From Rhypophila decipiens (taxonomy: Eukaryota; Ascomycota; Sordariomycetes; Sordariales; Naviculisporaceae), in NCBI GenBank assembly GCA_033297075.1, contig MU858046.1, forward strand, positions 682,001 to 746,000: 64,000 nucleotides of DNA. Reading direction: 5' to 3'. Each line of letters opens with the position of its first letter. The first letter of the stretch is position 1. A program made the translations under genes and the position numbers. Below, in pieces: positions 25,354-56,208 of this stretch. The notes beneath the pieces are model-generated. The model was not told the origin of the DNA. It searched no databases and saw only the letters and a program-made list of their open reading frames with translations.

Positions 25354-25472
25354 ACATACGACCATACGCGCTGGAAAACTCGGGATCCCGTCCGCTCTCC
25401 CATAGATAAGCCAGCGACGGTCAGACTAGTACTCAGGTGGGTGACCACTGGGGAATCCCTGATGTTGTATGT
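25354..25472 (+). rRNA. 5S ribosomal RNA (dispersed copy)
   Basis: A 119-base segment begins ACATACGACCATACGCGCTG and ends GATGTTGTATGT, the typical ends of fungal 5S rRNA; the ends pair (ACATACGAC with GTTGTATGT). The internal control region is intact: GATCCCGTCCGCTCTCCC, AAGCCAG, and GGTGGGTGACCACTGGG. A TTTTT run right after the 3' end fits a Pol III terminator. Single 5S genes scattered in the genome are normal for Pezizomycotina such as Neurospora. It appears functional by sequence; expression is not shown. Confidence 0.92.
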
Positions 25473-27895
25473 TTTTGCACCCTATTCCTTTTCTTTTCTT
25501 TTTTACCTATCCGGTAAATAGAACAAAGCACATACCCTTTATATACGAGCCTTCCCGCATTATATAAGTACATTCCAGTATATATACTACCAGCAAAACA
25601 ATATAATACACCTACTGATAAAGTTCTTGTACATACGGGTATTAGCTTATGACTCGAAGCCCTCTATGCTCGCGCATCTCCATAGTCGCCATCCTATCTT
25701 TATAAGCCCGTCTCCTATAATTCTTCGCTTCAATAATCACAGCGTCTCTCTCTCTAACCTGTCTCCGCTGTTTCGAGGTTGACGACCGTTGATGACACAA
25801 TGACGACTCGGGAATTTTTGGTGTTGTATGTTTTTGTTTGTGCCCCTTTTTTGTTTCAATGCATGATGCAGTAAACAAACCACCCCATCCACTCAGCCCA
25901 GGGGTAAACCGTCCACGTCGTTGTTCACATACCAACTTGGGGAGAGTTACGGATACCAGCAGAGATCTCAACTGCCTTGCTTTGGCCGTGAAGATCTCAG
26001 ATTGGTGATTGAGTTCAACTCATGGCTCGTTCCAGGCTCATATATTTACTTGCATAGCAGGTGATGCCGTCTCGATGACTAGGATGATCGTACGGATAAA
26101 AGTCGCCTACAATCACTCGAACAAAGTTACAAACCACAGTTGCTTTTCTTAGATCGAGCTGAGCGGTATACACTAAAGATATCTACACACGGCAACATCA
26201 TGGCACGCACTGTCATCAGTCTTCGTCTGTTCGAAGATATGAAGTCGGCGGGTTATTCAACCGCACTGTCCCAATAGCGCTGATACGTACCCGTACCGTG
26301 CCTAGCCGAGCTAGACCGTTCCATCGAGGCTCGGGTCTTGGATCGGACTCCAAATGGAGATAACGGATTTATCAAATACTCTAAGAAAAGCCACACCGGC
26401 GGCCCAACGTCGCCGACATCCGATCAACACGCCCTTTGAGAATTGAAACTTGACATGGCTGGTTTGGGCCCTTTGGGGGGTTGGGGGTGGCGATTTTCAA
26501 TTCCAGTTAAGCAAAAATCCTTCTGCCCCACCTTGAAAGAATATCGATATCGCTTTGGCCGCAGGAATCTCACCAATGCATCGCTAATGACCCATTTGCG
26601 TGAGGGCCAATGAAGATTCGGGATGCTCGATAATATGCTCATTCTATCCGTATTGTGTACGGAGCACTGTCCAAGCGCAGAGCTGAACGCTGTCGGGTAT
26701 GGACGATTTGGCCACGAGACGGTTTTGACAGCTGGCTGGCTGGCTGGGACCTTACTCAGCCCTGTGAATGACCCCTCATCACTCCGAACCGTGGCGGCAC
26801 TTTTTTCGATCCACATGTAGATGGAAGGGACGTCGTTGAATTTTCGAATCGAAGGTGGAAGAAGAGAGTAAAATGAGCTGAACGGTTATGCAAGATCCAG
26901 GAACGCTTCGTTTGGCCAAGAGCTGGGAGGCAATCCATCTTTTTAAGGCTGGAGTGAGGAGGACCTTGACGGATTAGAAAGTGACATTTTATTCCCCCGG
27001 GTGGATGGCATTTGTTGGTCACATCTCTCCAGTCGGGGCAATTCCCCCTCCATTGTCCGGGTCATGAGCAGGGATCGAGCATGCTGCCCTTCCTTTCAAG
27101 AGCAGAGCCGCTGACAAATTAAAGCTTCCAACATTTCCATCGGAACCCCTCATGAGATTCTGGTCGTTTCCTCTGACTCCTACAACCCACCAACAATTGT
27201 CCATTCCCACACACACTGCACCGCAACCGTTCACACTGCCCCAAGACCAAACCCACTGCAAACAACCGTGACCTCTGAGAACCACCTGTTATCTTGTTTT
27301 GTGGTCCTGGTACCGTGCATCTATCTGTCCTTCGCTCAAAGCGGCAAAGCTCTGCAAGTGAGCTGGTGTCAGGTGAGTTGAGGCGAGCAATTTCAGGCGG
27401 GAAGGCCGCAATTCTTTCCTCTTTTCTGACACTCACTCGGATCTCACCAACCTTGAAGCCGGGAAACCCTTACATCTGTCGCAAGCAATCAAACTGTCAA
27501 CTTTGCTGAGACCCTTGAAGTTTTCCCCTTGGAGGCGAATTTTGACCTCTGCGCGTGCCTTCACTCAACTTCGTGTGGGCTGTGAATTGACTCGTTTGCG
27601 TCATCACCTCAGTCTGCCATCTTATCACTTGCATCATTGTCGACTGCTCTCTCAGCACCATTGCCCTTCAACCCTAAACTTTGATCGAGCACTCTGCTGT
27701 TCTTTGTCCACCATATCTTTTCACCTTATATCACGGGTGGCGTTTTAGTCGCTCACCGTTGGGTCGTGACGTCGCGCAACCCATTCTACCGTTTCGAGGC
27801 GGACGATTGACTTTCTCGGGTGGATAACCTCCCTGGACTCTACTCGGTGTCAACTACCGCCATCGCAAGCCATCCGTCCGCTGGACTCAGTCAAG
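25473..27895. other. Intergenic and probable long leader of the bZIP gene
   Basis: Apart from the 5S relic, no gene is supported. The 600 bases before 27896 are CT-rich with many short ATG-started frames; long leaders with upstream frames are common for fungal regulatory genes, so part of this is probably the 5' UTR of the bZIP gene. A TCCGTA/TACGGA palindrome is at 26647-26663. Confidence 0.45.
25801..25835 (+). pseudogene. 3' fragment of a 5S rRNA gene (relic)
   Basis: TGACGACTCGGGAATTTTTG followed by GTGTTGTATGTTTTT aligns to the 3' third of 5S rRNA, with CCC of the standard GGGAATCCCTG changed to TTT. The rest of the gene is missing or unrecognisable upstream. It lies 330 bases after the intact 5S copy on the same strand. 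The change CCC to TTT is consistent with C-to-T mutation such as RIP, but one fragment cannot prove it. Confidence 0.5.
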
Positions 27896-44345: not shown

Positions 44346-44438
44346 CTCTCCCGCCGGGAATTGAACCCGGGTCTCGAGCGAATCGGAACCAGGGGCGGAA
44401 TTGACAAGCTCACATACTGACCACTATACTACGGAAGA
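44346..44438 (-). tRNA. tRNA-Asp (GTC), intron of 21 nt
   Basis: 93 bases on the minus strand. The acceptor TCTTCCG pairs with CGGGAGA with discriminator G; the D arm has the TAGTATAGTGGTCAG A-box, and the T arm is CCGGG-TTCAATT-CCCGG. The anticodon arm is TGAGC / GCTCG with loop TTGTCA-C and anticodon GTC at 44405-44403. A 21-base intron (44401-44381) sits after position 37, the standard place. The gene is complete apart from CCA, which is added later. Confidence 0.93.
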
Positions 44439-50020: not shown

Positions 50021-50399
50021 GGGTGATTAATATTTACTGGTCCCTGGGCCATGATGGGGAGGGATATGCCCTTGTTGGTACCCTATTGGCAGGGATCTGT
50101 GTCTGGATATGAACGAATGTTTGCCATTCATGGTGACGGATATGACCCGCTCCCATAGCACTTGCTTGTCTGGGATCTGAGAAAGAGACCTGGGATATGG
50201 ACAATTAATGGTTTGATGAACATTGATGAGATTTGATCATGATGGATTACAACCTGAGAACTTGAAATGAGTTGGGATCCTGGACCGCGGATGTCAGAAA
50301 AAGTTATAGTCGATGTACATGAATCACGGGCCAGTCAGTTTAATGGTAAAACAGAACAAGTAAAATCCAAAATTCATTTTTTTTCTTTTCGGAACTACT
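50021..50399. other. Intergenic, 3' flank of carboxypeptidase
   Basis: No feature recognised before the presumed 3' end of the snoRNA host transcript. Confidence 0.4.
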
Positions 50400-50777
50400 C
50401 TATGCGAAAGAGCGCCGTATTGCCTGTGGAGTGCCAAGCAGACGGCAGCAGTCACATCTACGCTTGATAAATGAGGCCTACGACGGTACGAGATACTACG
50501 CAAACCTACCTCGAAACGCAGGAAAAGGTGCAAAGAATGGGAGGAGATTGCAAGTCCAGCCGAGAGATTGGATCACGCGACAGAATCTGAAACACGCTCT
50601 CCTGCCACACTGGACACTCCAGTTGGCCAAGATGGACCAGTTCCTGTGAATTAGTCAAGACCCAGTGAGCGATGGTTGTGTAGCAAAAGTTGAACATCAC
50701 AAGATGGATCTGGTCTGACATCAAACGTTAGCTGGGAACGCTGATAAAGTATGAAATCAAGAGATTCGAATTGGTAA

Positions 50778-50865
50778 ATATCAGTTTCCAATGCATTGTC
50801 AATGCGGTTTCATCAAAGCATAGCTATGTAGACCGTCGTGATATTTGTTGAAATCATCATGGAAG
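50778..50865 (-). ncRNA. Box C/D snoRNA (25S guide, Cm2959-like, yeast snR73 type)
   Basis: C box ATGATGA at 50860-50854, an internal TGATGA C'-like box, and D box CTGA at 50784-50781. Between them, TCACGACGGTCTA is complementary to UAGACCGUCGUGA of 25S rRNA (peptidyl-transferase region). Taking the D' box as the CATA after it, the nucleotide five upstream pairs with the first C of GACC, the position of yeast Cm2959. No strong terminal stem was found. rRNA sequence and numbering are from memory. Confidence 0.65.
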
Positions 50866-51047
50866 TCAGGGGATGAGGGCAAAGAAGCGAAGGGATGCTT
50901 ACCAAATCAAGTTCGATAACATGCCTGTGACATGAGGAGGTCGTCAGTGGACGCAGCGTGTCTACGACCGTTAGCATGGTCCAGCATCGAAAGTCTGATT
51001 GAGAGTCAATGAAGGCCGAGTTCAGACATGACTGTATCGTCTTAGCG

Positions 51048-51096
51048 TGAGCTCGGACATATGCTTGTCATTTTACGTCTGAAATCATCATGAAAG
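51048..51096 (-). ncRNA. Box C/D snoRNA-like element (18S Am28, snR74 type)
   Basis: C box ATGATGA at 51091-51085. GACAAGCATATG is complementary to CAUAUGCUUGUC at the 5' end of 18S rRNA. The following tetramer at 51056-51053 is CCGA, not CTGA; using it as box D, the fifth nucleotide upstream pairs with A28 of yeast 18S, the known snR74 target. The element is short (about 45-50 bases), so the 5' end or D box may differ from this reading. Confidence 0.5.
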
Positions 51097-51245
51097 CCAG
51101 CGAAGGAAGGTGGTTCTGAGAAAGCTCCTCAACATACCATGTGGACGACCCTCAAATCCTCGTGATAGGAAACCTGTAGGTTCTTGGAACATGTTAGCCG
51201 AGGTTCCGGTGACCACGAAAAACAATTCATTGACATGAAAGGACC

Positions 51246-51336
51246 AGATCAGGTATGCATGAATGGTATAAAAAATAGATTATCCGCATCGGTAAACCCG
51301 GATAGGACTCGTCATCTAGAAAATCATCATAGGACC
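51246..51336 (-). ncRNA. Box C/D snoRNA (25S guide, near Cm2197/Am2220)
   Basis: C box ATGATGA at 51330-51324 and D box CTGA at 51252-51249. Shortly after the C box, TAGATGACGAG is complementary to CUCGUCAUCUA of 25S, and just before the D box CCATTCATGC pairs with GCAUGAAUGG. Both targets lie within 30 bases of each other in 25S (yeast Cm2197 and Am2220 area). The D' box is degenerate. Two-site pairing to neighbouring positions supports a real guide. Confidence 0.65.
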
Positions 51337-51478
51337 AAAGGGGGAAAGAAAAGAGAATAGACCTACAGTATCAAATGATCAAACTCGCTGTCCCGGACAC
51401 TGAGGCGTGCACAAGCGCTCAACTGGCTGCTATGTTAGCCATGAACTCATCCGAGCATGCAAACAAAAGGATGAGAGG

Positions 51479-51575
51479 CTGCTAATCAGTGGACGAGGTT
51501 TTCTAGGCCTGTCGCAAAAGTGGCATATCCGTCATTTGAGAATCGGAGCCCAGTGCCGTTTCATCATAGAAGCAG
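51479..51575 (-). ncRNA. Box C/D snoRNA (target unassigned)
   Basis: C box ATGATGA at 51567-51561, D box CTGA at 51489-51486, and a terminal stem CTGCT (51575-51571) with AGCAG (51483-51479). A GGCACTGGGC segment is complementary to GCCCAGUGC found in 25S, but the position does not correspond to a methylation I can recall, so the target is left open. Confidence 0.6.
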
Positions 51576-51724
51576 TCGAGGGGATGATGGAGAGGCGACA
51601 TACCCATCATGTCTGGGCGCAGTGAAGGTCGAGGTGAGCGGGATGGCGGTCTGAAACAGAGTCCTTTGATAGCGTTAGCATTGGAAACCATACAAGATGT
51701 GAATGCAAGATGTATTGTTGAGGT

Positions 51725-51813
51725 CGTCAATCAGAAACAGCCAATTGTTTTCTTCAAGAATTTTCAGTCGGTAATTCCAACTTGCCGAAGCAAAGTAAGA
51801 TCATCAGATGACG
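51725..51813 (-). ncRNA. Box C/D snoRNA (18S Um578, snR77 type)
   Basis: C box CTGATGA at 51807-51801, D' box CTGA at 51767-51764, and D box CTGA at 51734-51731. The terminal stem CGTCA (51813-51809) with TGACG (51729-51725) is perfect. Just upstream of D', AGTTGGAATTACCG pairs with CGGUAAUUCCAGCU of the 18S 530 loop, with one G-U. The fifth nucleotide upstream of D' pairs with the U of CGGU, matching yeast Um578, guided by snR77. Best-supported snoRNA in the locus. Confidence 0.75.
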
Positions 51814-52093
51814 TGGGGAAGAGGTTGTTTGCGAACGTGGATAAATGGGAGACCAACCTGATATCAAGGAGCGTCACAAAGACATAGCGATGGGCCGACG
51901 ATCGACATGCAATGAATGTTTACCATGGCCACGGCCAAGCTCATGTCCCATCACCCTTCCGCCAATACAGATCTGATCGAGACCGGTTCCATTGTGGAGG
52001 GGAGCTGCCTATTGATCTGTTGAAGCCGTTAGCGACGATTCGGGCATTCACTGCGGTGTTTTCTGCTTGATCAATTTCCAAAAAGCTTTGCGC

Positions 52094-52183
52094 TTGATCA
52101 GACTGACGTGACAATGCTAGTTACATGTCCATAAATGGTTCAAAGACTCTAGTTTGCGGTGTTGGTGTTGTCATCAGGGAAAG
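52094..52183 (-). ncRNA. Box C/D snoRNA (25S guide, GACUCUAGUUUG site)
   Basis: C box CTGATGA at 52177-52171 and D box CTGA at 52101-52098. CAAACTAGAGTC is complementary to GACUCUAGUUUG of 25S rRNA (12 bases). A D' box is not clear. It lies in the first mapped intron (52223-52017). The exact methylated base is not assigned. Confidence 0.6.
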
Positions 52184-52320
52184 GAAATTGCTCGTGGGAT
52201 GCTGAAGGAATTGCTGAACTTACCAGAACTGTGTGGTTGTTGGTCGAACTGCGCGATGGTGCAGTGAGAATGGAAGTGGGAGTCGGAGAAAGGAATTGAA
52301 AATTTTTGGGGAGGTTTTGA

Positions 52321-52566
52321 AGCTGCTAAATTGTGGAGCCCAAGGAAAATTCCGCCGCCGTTGCTGAGACCCCACCTTCCAGCAAAGCTTGAGCGCTGTG
52401 CTTGGCGATCACGTGCCGTCGCTCATCTTTCGTGTTTGCCCAGCCTCCAACTGCATGAACGTCATATCCACTTGTTACATCATTGAACCTGGACGCGTAA
52501 CCTCAGAGCTGTAAATTGCCCCGGATAGGAAGTTGGGCGGCCAGATTTTGGATAACGAAAATCAAA
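52321..52566. promoter_or_regulatory. Bidirectional promoter: snoRNA host / FPG
   Basis: About 250 bases between the presumed start of the snoRNA host transcript (minus) and the FPG start codon at 52567 (plus). No further gene fits in the space. Specific sites not assigned. Confidence 0.45.
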
Positions 52567-53988
52567 ATGCCCGAAATCGCAGAAAGTATGCTCGCTCGTT
52601 GCTTGACGAAATAAAAGTAACCTTTGCTGACAGATCCATATTCGCCAGTTGCTCGCGCTGTCCATTTCTTGCGTTTGCATTTGGTTGGCAAGACGATCAA
52701 AAGCGCAATCGCAGTTGATGATGCAAATGTCTTTGGAAAGGTGGGGACCTCGGGTCCTGAGTTTGCGGTTGCGATGACGGGCAAAAAGGTCAGTGTTTTC
52801 CCCATGAGGCCTTGCGTGAGCTAAGAGACTCAACCCCGTACTAGGTTTTATCTGCTGGGACACAGGGGAAATACTTCTGGTGAGTTTTTCGGATATCATT
52901 ATCAGTGGTTGTGTCTTCCACGCTAACTTGACCCTAGGCTCGTGCTTGACAAACCACCACACCCGGTGATGCATTTTGGAATGACCGGTATATTTCCTTG
53001 CCATGTTCTGATATTCTCGAAATTGAACTGACAGCTGTTAGGTTGGATGCATGTTAAGGGAGATCAGACGGCCTATACCAACTACTACAAGAGCAAGAAG
53101 CCTGAGGAGCTTGAGGAGTGGCCGCCAAAGTACTGGAAATTCCAGCTGAAAACAGAGGAGGATCCCGTCGTCGAGGTCGCTTACACAGACCCCCGTCGGT
53201 TTGGCCGCGTCCGCCTCGTGGACTGCCCAGGGGACTCTATCCGGAAGCATTCGCCGCTGGTGGAGAACGGCCCAGACCCGGTTGTCGACACAGACATTTT
53301 CACGGAAGAGTACCTTGAGAAGAAGATGCGATCCAGACACGTGCCGATCAAGGCTCTCCTTCTCGACCAGGCATTCCTCAGCGGCATCGGTAACTGGGTG
53401 GGCGACGAAGTCCTCTACCAGGCAAAACTCCACCCAGAGCAATACTGCAATGATTTCAGTGACGCGGAGATCAAGGAGCTCTACCGGTCAATTCGCTATG
53501 TTTGTCAATTGGCAGTTGACAAGCTCGGGGATTCAGACCAGTTTCCCGAGACCTGGTTGTTCAACCACCGGTGGGGCAAGGGAAAGAAGGCCAGCAAGCT
53601 TCCAAATGGTGAAAAGCTGGCGTTCGTGACGGTGGGGGGAAGAACAAGTTGTTTCGCGCCGAATGTACAGAAAAAGACTGGAAAAGTTGCCCCAGGAATC
53701 AAGGAGGAGCCCATTGCATCTGACGAGGAAGAGCCAAAACCTGCAAAGGCTGGAAAAGCAAAGAAGCCCGCCAAGGCCCCCAAGATCAAGCAGGAGGAGG
53801 AGAAACCCACCAAAAGAAAGATCAAAGACGAGGATGATGCCGACAAGAAGCCGCTCAAAAAGACCAAAGCGGCCGCACCAAAGAAGACTTCTTCGGTTGC
53901 GAACGGTGTCAAATCAGAGGGGAAGAAGACGACAGACGACAAGGTGGAGGTAGGAAGACGGCGTTCTGGGCGCTTACAAGGGAAATAA
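52567..53988 (+). CDS. Formamidopyrimidine-DNA glycosylase (Fpg/MutM family)
   Basis: Five exons, 52567-52585, 52649-52788, 52845-52879, 52938-52987 and 53042-53988, encode 396 residues; phases all agree. The N-terminus MPEIAEIARAVHFLRLHLVG has catalytic Pro2 and Glu3, Lys62 is the beta-hairpin Lys (GTQGKYFW), and PVMHFGMTGWMHVKGDQTAY follows. The H2TH region is ALLLDQAFLSGIGNWVGDEV, and the C-terminal region FVTVGGRTSCFAPNVQKKTG lacks the four zinc Cys, i.e. a 'zincless finger' as in plant and fungal Fpg. A long Lys/Glu-rich tail follows (DNA-binding/nuclear). The enzyme removes oxidised purines such as 8-oxoguanine and FapyG in base excision repair. The first exon (19 nt) holds the catalytic Pro, so unspliced prediction would miss it. 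Confidence 0.95.
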
Positions 53989-56112: not shown

Positions 56113-56208
56113 GGTTGTATAGTGTAGCGGTTATCACACCAGATTCTGACACTCGTTCAGTCAAGTCAGGTCCTTCTGGTAACCCCGGTTCGATTCCGGG
56201 TACGACCT
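56113..56208 (+). tRNA. tRNA-Gln (CTG), intron of 24 nt
   Basis: 96 bases. Acceptor GGTTGTA pairs with TACGACC with discriminator T; D arm with GTGTAGCGGTTATCAC; anticodon arm CCAGA / TCTGG with loop TTCTGA and anticodon CTG at 56146-56148; intron 56150-56173 after position 37; T arm CCCGG-TTCGATT-CCGGG. A TTTCTTTTT run follows directly, a Pol III terminator. Confidence 0.94.

Follow-up and report, generated by a model that had tools for sequence, protein, structure and literature searches.

At positions 50400 to 52320 of the 64-kb window (the whole stretch of Rhypophila decipiens DNA analyzed here), a sequence-only reading had proposed a non-coding host gene with six box C/D snoRNAs in its introns, and had left it as a question whether this set and order of snoRNAs is described. 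We therefore asked whether the locus is such a host and to which known system it belongs. It is best explained as a fungal snoRNA cluster I orthologue that hosts six intronic C/D snoRNAs (probability about 0.96), and the proposal is supported by the intron and snoRNA anatomy, by family matches and by guide complementarity.

Intron modules and the host transcript

The exon/intron model of the locus comprises the following features.

50380..52320, minus strand: predicted transcription unit of the non-coding snoRNA host gene (snoRNA cluster I); exon/intron model, both ends assumed
52017..52223, minus strand: intron 1, GTAAGT...GCTAAC...CAG, 207 nt
51651..51923, minus strand: intron 2, GTAAAC...GCTAAC...CAG, 273 nt; donor uncertain
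51923-51858 and 51857-51651, minus strand: alternative to intron 2 as two juxtaposed introns, the second with a GTTGGT donor; split inferred
51423..51603, minus strand: intron 3, GTATGT...GCTAAC...CAG; a closer CAG ends at 51427
51174..51366, minus strand: intron 4, GTAGGT...GCTAAC...CAG
50962..51137, minus strand: intron 5, GTATGT...GCTAAC...TAG
50715..50902, minus strand: intron 6, GTAAGC...GCTAAC...CAG
50424..50509, minus strand: possible intron 7, without snoRNA, GTAGGT...CAG, no GCTAAC; weak signals

Six introns each carry one snoRNA together with splice and branch signals. The GCTAAC branch sites lie at 52033, 51679, 51439, 51198, 50975, and 50732 of the minus strand, which places them 68, 55, 50, 54, 50, and 52 nt from the D box in introns 1 to 6, and the motif occurs at 3.1 per kb in the locus versus 0.12 per kb in the rest of the window. 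A combined module pattern (donor, C box, D box, GCTAAC, and YAG), composed after the locus had been seen, matched six times in the locus and nowhere else in the window on either strand; first-order Markov shuffling of the locus (2000 copies) gave a mean of 0.0005 matches and a maximum of 1. For introns 4 and 6, the pattern took a donor further upstream than that of the model, with the branch sites unchanged. These data bear out the claim of a series of minus-strand introns with fungal splice and GCTAAC signals.

Intron 2 may be read in two ways. Its donor lies 116 nt from box C versus 36 to 46 nt in the other five introns, and it contains a CAG whose last base is at 51858, with GTTGGT starting immediately after it at 51857, at a distance of 50 nt from box C. 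Juxtaposed introns with no exon between them are described for these fungal snoRNA clusters in the portion of PMC3596301 available to us (section 8), and intron 2 is either a single long intron or two such introns.

Splicing of the model yields exons of 97, 93, 47, 56, 36, 59, 205, and 44 nt, which have no open reading frame (ORF) beyond chance and little coding potential. The longest spliced ORF is 77 amino acids (aa); of 1000 mononucleotide-shuffled copies of the spliced sequence (mean, 56.3 aa), 19.9% attain this length, in agreement with the earlier statement that the locus lacks a continuous coding frame. It is very improbable that this is a protein-coding gene whose exons encode a small protein and whose introns house the snoRNAs incidentally: the 77-aa frame, which starts in exon 7, does continue without a stop up to the assumed end of the spliced model, as such a gene would have it, but about one shuffle in five reaches that length and the exons upstream of that stretch contain stops in each of the three frames. 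Moreover, the hosts of Neurospora crassa clusters I to V have short ORFs of 159 to 267 bp according to the accessible part of PMC2780460, a range that includes the 77-aa ORF. From the absent coding frame we infer that the locus may exist solely to deliver guides.

The host is flanked upstream by a divergent formamidopyrimidine-DNA glycosylase gene (PF06831) and downstream by a convergent serine carboxypeptidase gene (PF00450). A 313-aa exon stretch of the glycosylase is 100% identical to one Rhypophila decipiens protein and 99% identical to another (Sordariales). The host and the glycosylase gene are about 250 bp apart (52320-52567, with the ATG near 52567 and the host start placed by eye), an arrangement that suggests a shared promoter region.

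snoRNA families and box elements

Rfam searches returned, in order, snR78, Afu_300/snoR77Y, Afu_513/snR76, snR75, SNORD27, and snR73, with three of the six matches under the gathering threshold. The site numbers given below are what we take to be yeast numbering.

52095..52183, minus strand: snR78/72 double-guide C/D snoRNA (Nc CD5 type); Rfam snR78, 26.7 bits, below gathering (48), E 0.57
51728..51812, minus strand: snR77 C/D snoRNA (18S U578); Rfam Afu_300, 57.6 bits, above gathering
51483..51572, minus strand: snR76 C/D snoRNA (25S C2197); Rfam Afu_513, 78.4 bits, above gathering
51246..51334, minus strand: snR75 C/D snoRNA (25S G2288, extra GCATGAATGG pairing); Rfam snR75, 74.0 bits, above gathering
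51018..51096, minus strand: snR74/U27 C/D snoRNA (18S A28); Rfam SNORD27, 30.4 bits, below gathering (52), E 0.029
50778..50866, minus strand: snR73/U35 C/D snoRNA (25S C2959); Rfam snR73, 25.5 bits, below gathering (37), E 0.41

All six snoRNAs have box C and box D near their ends. The C boxes anticipated by the sequence-only reading were located on the minus strand as CTGATGA at 52177 and 51807 and as ATGATGA at 51567, 51330, 51091, and 50860, so that two of the six begin with C rather than a purine; a seventh TGATGA at 50816 falls inside snR73. The D boxes (52101, 51734, 51489, 51252, 51025, and 50784, minus strand) had been described as mostly CTGA; the motif was correct, but it is present in every one of the six. 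D' boxes are CTGA only in snR77 and degenerate in the other five, where they are assumed to be TTGA (snR78/72), CCGA (snR76 and snR74), CCTA (snR75), and CATA (snR73) from their placement in the Rfam alignments. Perfect 5-bp terminal stems, two of which had been reported, were seen by eye in the flanks of snR77 and snR76, and none was seen for the other four snoRNAs.

The three sub-gathering snoRNAs were accepted on their boxes, their location in GCTAAC introns, and their guides, and not on their scores. That the cluster is partly decayed and some of its snoRNAs, such as the low-scoring snR78, snR74, and snR73, are pseudogenes is the least credible reading, since all six modules keep their C box, D box, and GCTAAC at near-constant spacing, the longest guides (12, 12, and 13 bp) belong to precisely these three, and low scores would be expected where a model derives from a distant species.

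Guides and their predicted rRNA targets

Guides were compared, as Watson-Crick runs, with six assumed yeast rRNA segments and with one fetched 25S fragment (L009). The segments were picked since the families are known to target them, and the comparison is thus a test of a stated prediction rather than a blind search of whole rRNA. Assumed yeast segments served as the main basis because the assembly yielded no rDNA: a search for 5.8S rRNA gave no match in the assembly (39 of 1252 candidates scored), and a core pattern for 25S, allowing 2 mismatches at most, likewise matched nothing. Since both searches were empty, rDNA is probably absent from the assembly. Rfam runs at six of eight loci around 5S genes found 5S and two tRNAs and no other rRNA. 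Four rRNA pattern scans of viral contigs supplied the one 25S fragment; the IMG/VR "viral" contig concerned starts with a eukaryotic-type 25S rRNA fragment (L009:1-120), continues with other sequence, and looks chimeric. The window itself holds a 5S rRNA gene at 25354-25473, one of at least 47 dispersed 5S matches in the assembly, as well as two tRNA genes identified with Rfam (44346-44438 and 56113-56208), which possibly contain introns because they are 93 and 96 bases long.

Each of the six snoRNAs has a guide that pairs over 9 to 13 bp with the rRNA segment its family would be expected to target. Pairing extends over 12 bp to the assumed 25S U2421 segment for snR78/72, 11 bp to the assumed 18S U578 segment for snR77 (with the guide adjoining the CTGA D' box), 9 bp to the assumed 25S C2197 segment for snR76, 11 bp to the assumed 25S G2288 segment plus 10 bp to GCATGAATGG for snR75, 12 bp to the assumed 18S A28 segment for snR74, and 13 bp to the C2959 region of the fetched 25S fragment for snR73. 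Per 150 shuffles of each snoRNA, the longest run was reached 0, 3, 14, 1, 0, and 0 times for snR78/72, snR77, snR76, snR75, snR74, and snR73, respectively. Because 14 of 150 shuffles reach 9 bp, the snR76 guide is not beyond chance on its own, and the identity of this snoRNA rests on Rfam and not on its guide.

In addition, the nine bases immediately 5' of box D in snR78/72 pair with ACTGACGTG of 25S rRNA (assumed A876 segment). This 9-bp element is the snR72-type guide, and its presence in the first snoRNA makes the latter the published snR78/72 double guide. Only two guides, that of snR77 (D' CTGA) and the snR72-type one (D CTGA), have an unambiguous +5 register; for the other D' guides, it was read by eye because their degenerate D' boxes had been placed through Rfam alignments, with the rRNA mostly assumed.

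The targets listed by the sequence-only reading were all recovered, with 11 bp to 18S U578, 12 bp to 18S A28, and, in 25S rRNA, 13 bp to UAGACCGUCGUGA, 11 bp to CUCGUCAUCUA with 10 bp to GCAUGAAUGG, and 12 bp to GACUCUAGUUUG. Two had been missing from it, namely, the 9-bp targets of snR76 and of the snR72-type second guide of the first snoRNA.

On the D side of snR76, the stretch GGCCTAGAAAACC (51497-51509, minus strand) is common to the Rfam consensus of Afu_513 and that of snR76, and it is not known to have an assigned target. It is conceivable, though doubtful, that this element, which the Aspergillus and yeast family models have in common, contacts some further target that still awaits assignment; if so, the cluster would do more than the seven known methylations.

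Relationship to fungal snoRNA cluster I

The question of whether the set and order are described is answered positively for fungi in general. As reported in the part of PMC3596301 at hand, cluster I consists of snR78-77-76-75-74-73-72, is present in nearly all fungi analyzed, and is entirely intronic in Euascomycetes, where the snR78/72 fusion occurs in all species. The available text of PMC5033589 likewise describes a Pezizomycotina cluster I without snR72, the snR72 intron having recombined with that of snR78. The present locus has the same set and order as the Euascomycete cluster, snR78-77-76-75-74-73 with snR72 fused to snR78, and it is likewise all intronic with non-coding exons; no difference from the cluster in PMC3596301, as far as that part goes, was established. 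Because the two are fused in Euascomycetes, no separate snR72 is expected. A search for a separate snR72 in the 3' part (50700-50380) found no TGATGA. A DNA search with 50700-52320 matched only itself in the assembly, giving no second copy of the locus.

A close parallel is found in N. crassa. The sections of PMC2780460 accessible to us report five C/D clusters conserved with yeast, with hosts that were checked by RT-PCR, are UHG-like, and have short ORFs, the last of which is shared by the present host; cluster I there undergoes skipping of exon 2, alone or together with exon 3, and Candida cluster I splicing is likened to that of N. crassa in the part of PMC5033589 seen. Table 1 of PMC2780460 places the N. 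crassa homologues of all cluster I snoRNAs in introns on chromosome VI; one of them is the double guide CD5, which directs 26S-Am856 at D and 26S-Um2383 at D'. By yeast homologue, CD5, CD24, CD12, CD7, CD21, and CD31 of that table are the same six types as found here, and we infer that they constitute N. crassa cluster I. One difference concerns CD24 (snR77), for which the same table gives a 15-bp D-side guide to U5-Am62, whereas the D side of the present snR77 showed no Watson-Crick run of at least 8, or of at least 10 with G-U pairs, against two U5 genes of the assembly.

The snR78-snR72 polycistron of Saccharomyces cerevisiae contains the same snoRNAs in the same order, as outlined in the excerpts of PMC3596301 and PMC5033589. 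In yeast, however, seven snoRNAs are carried on an unspliced transcript cut by Rnt1p, whereas here there are six, one per intron, with snR72 and snR78 fused. Mammalian hosts of the UHG/gas5 type, as characterized in the accessible part of PMC2780460, are also non-coding with one snoRNA per intron, but their snoRNA composition differs and the similarity in organization is one of analogy.

The products of the locus are predicted to behave as those of its relatives do. A Pol II transcript would be spliced, and each of the six introns would, after debranching, be trimmed down to one box C/D snoRNA, which would be held by Snu13, Nop56, Nop58, and Nop1. The snoRNAs would then guide 2'-O-methylation at the equivalents of 25S U2421, A876, C2197, G2288, and C2959 and of 18S U578 and A28, and the joined exons would be a by-product without coding function.

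Taken together, the locus is real, was correctly read, and is already known in kind, as its snoRNA set and order are described for fungi. The name Rhypophila decipiens is absent among the literature matches listed, from a thin search that is no proof that the locus is unpublished. The finding mainly confirms that a snoRNA host is recognizable from raw sequence by tool-free reading, and it contributes a further Sordariales example of an old, conserved snoRNA block, an orthologue in which it also documents the snR78/72 fusion.
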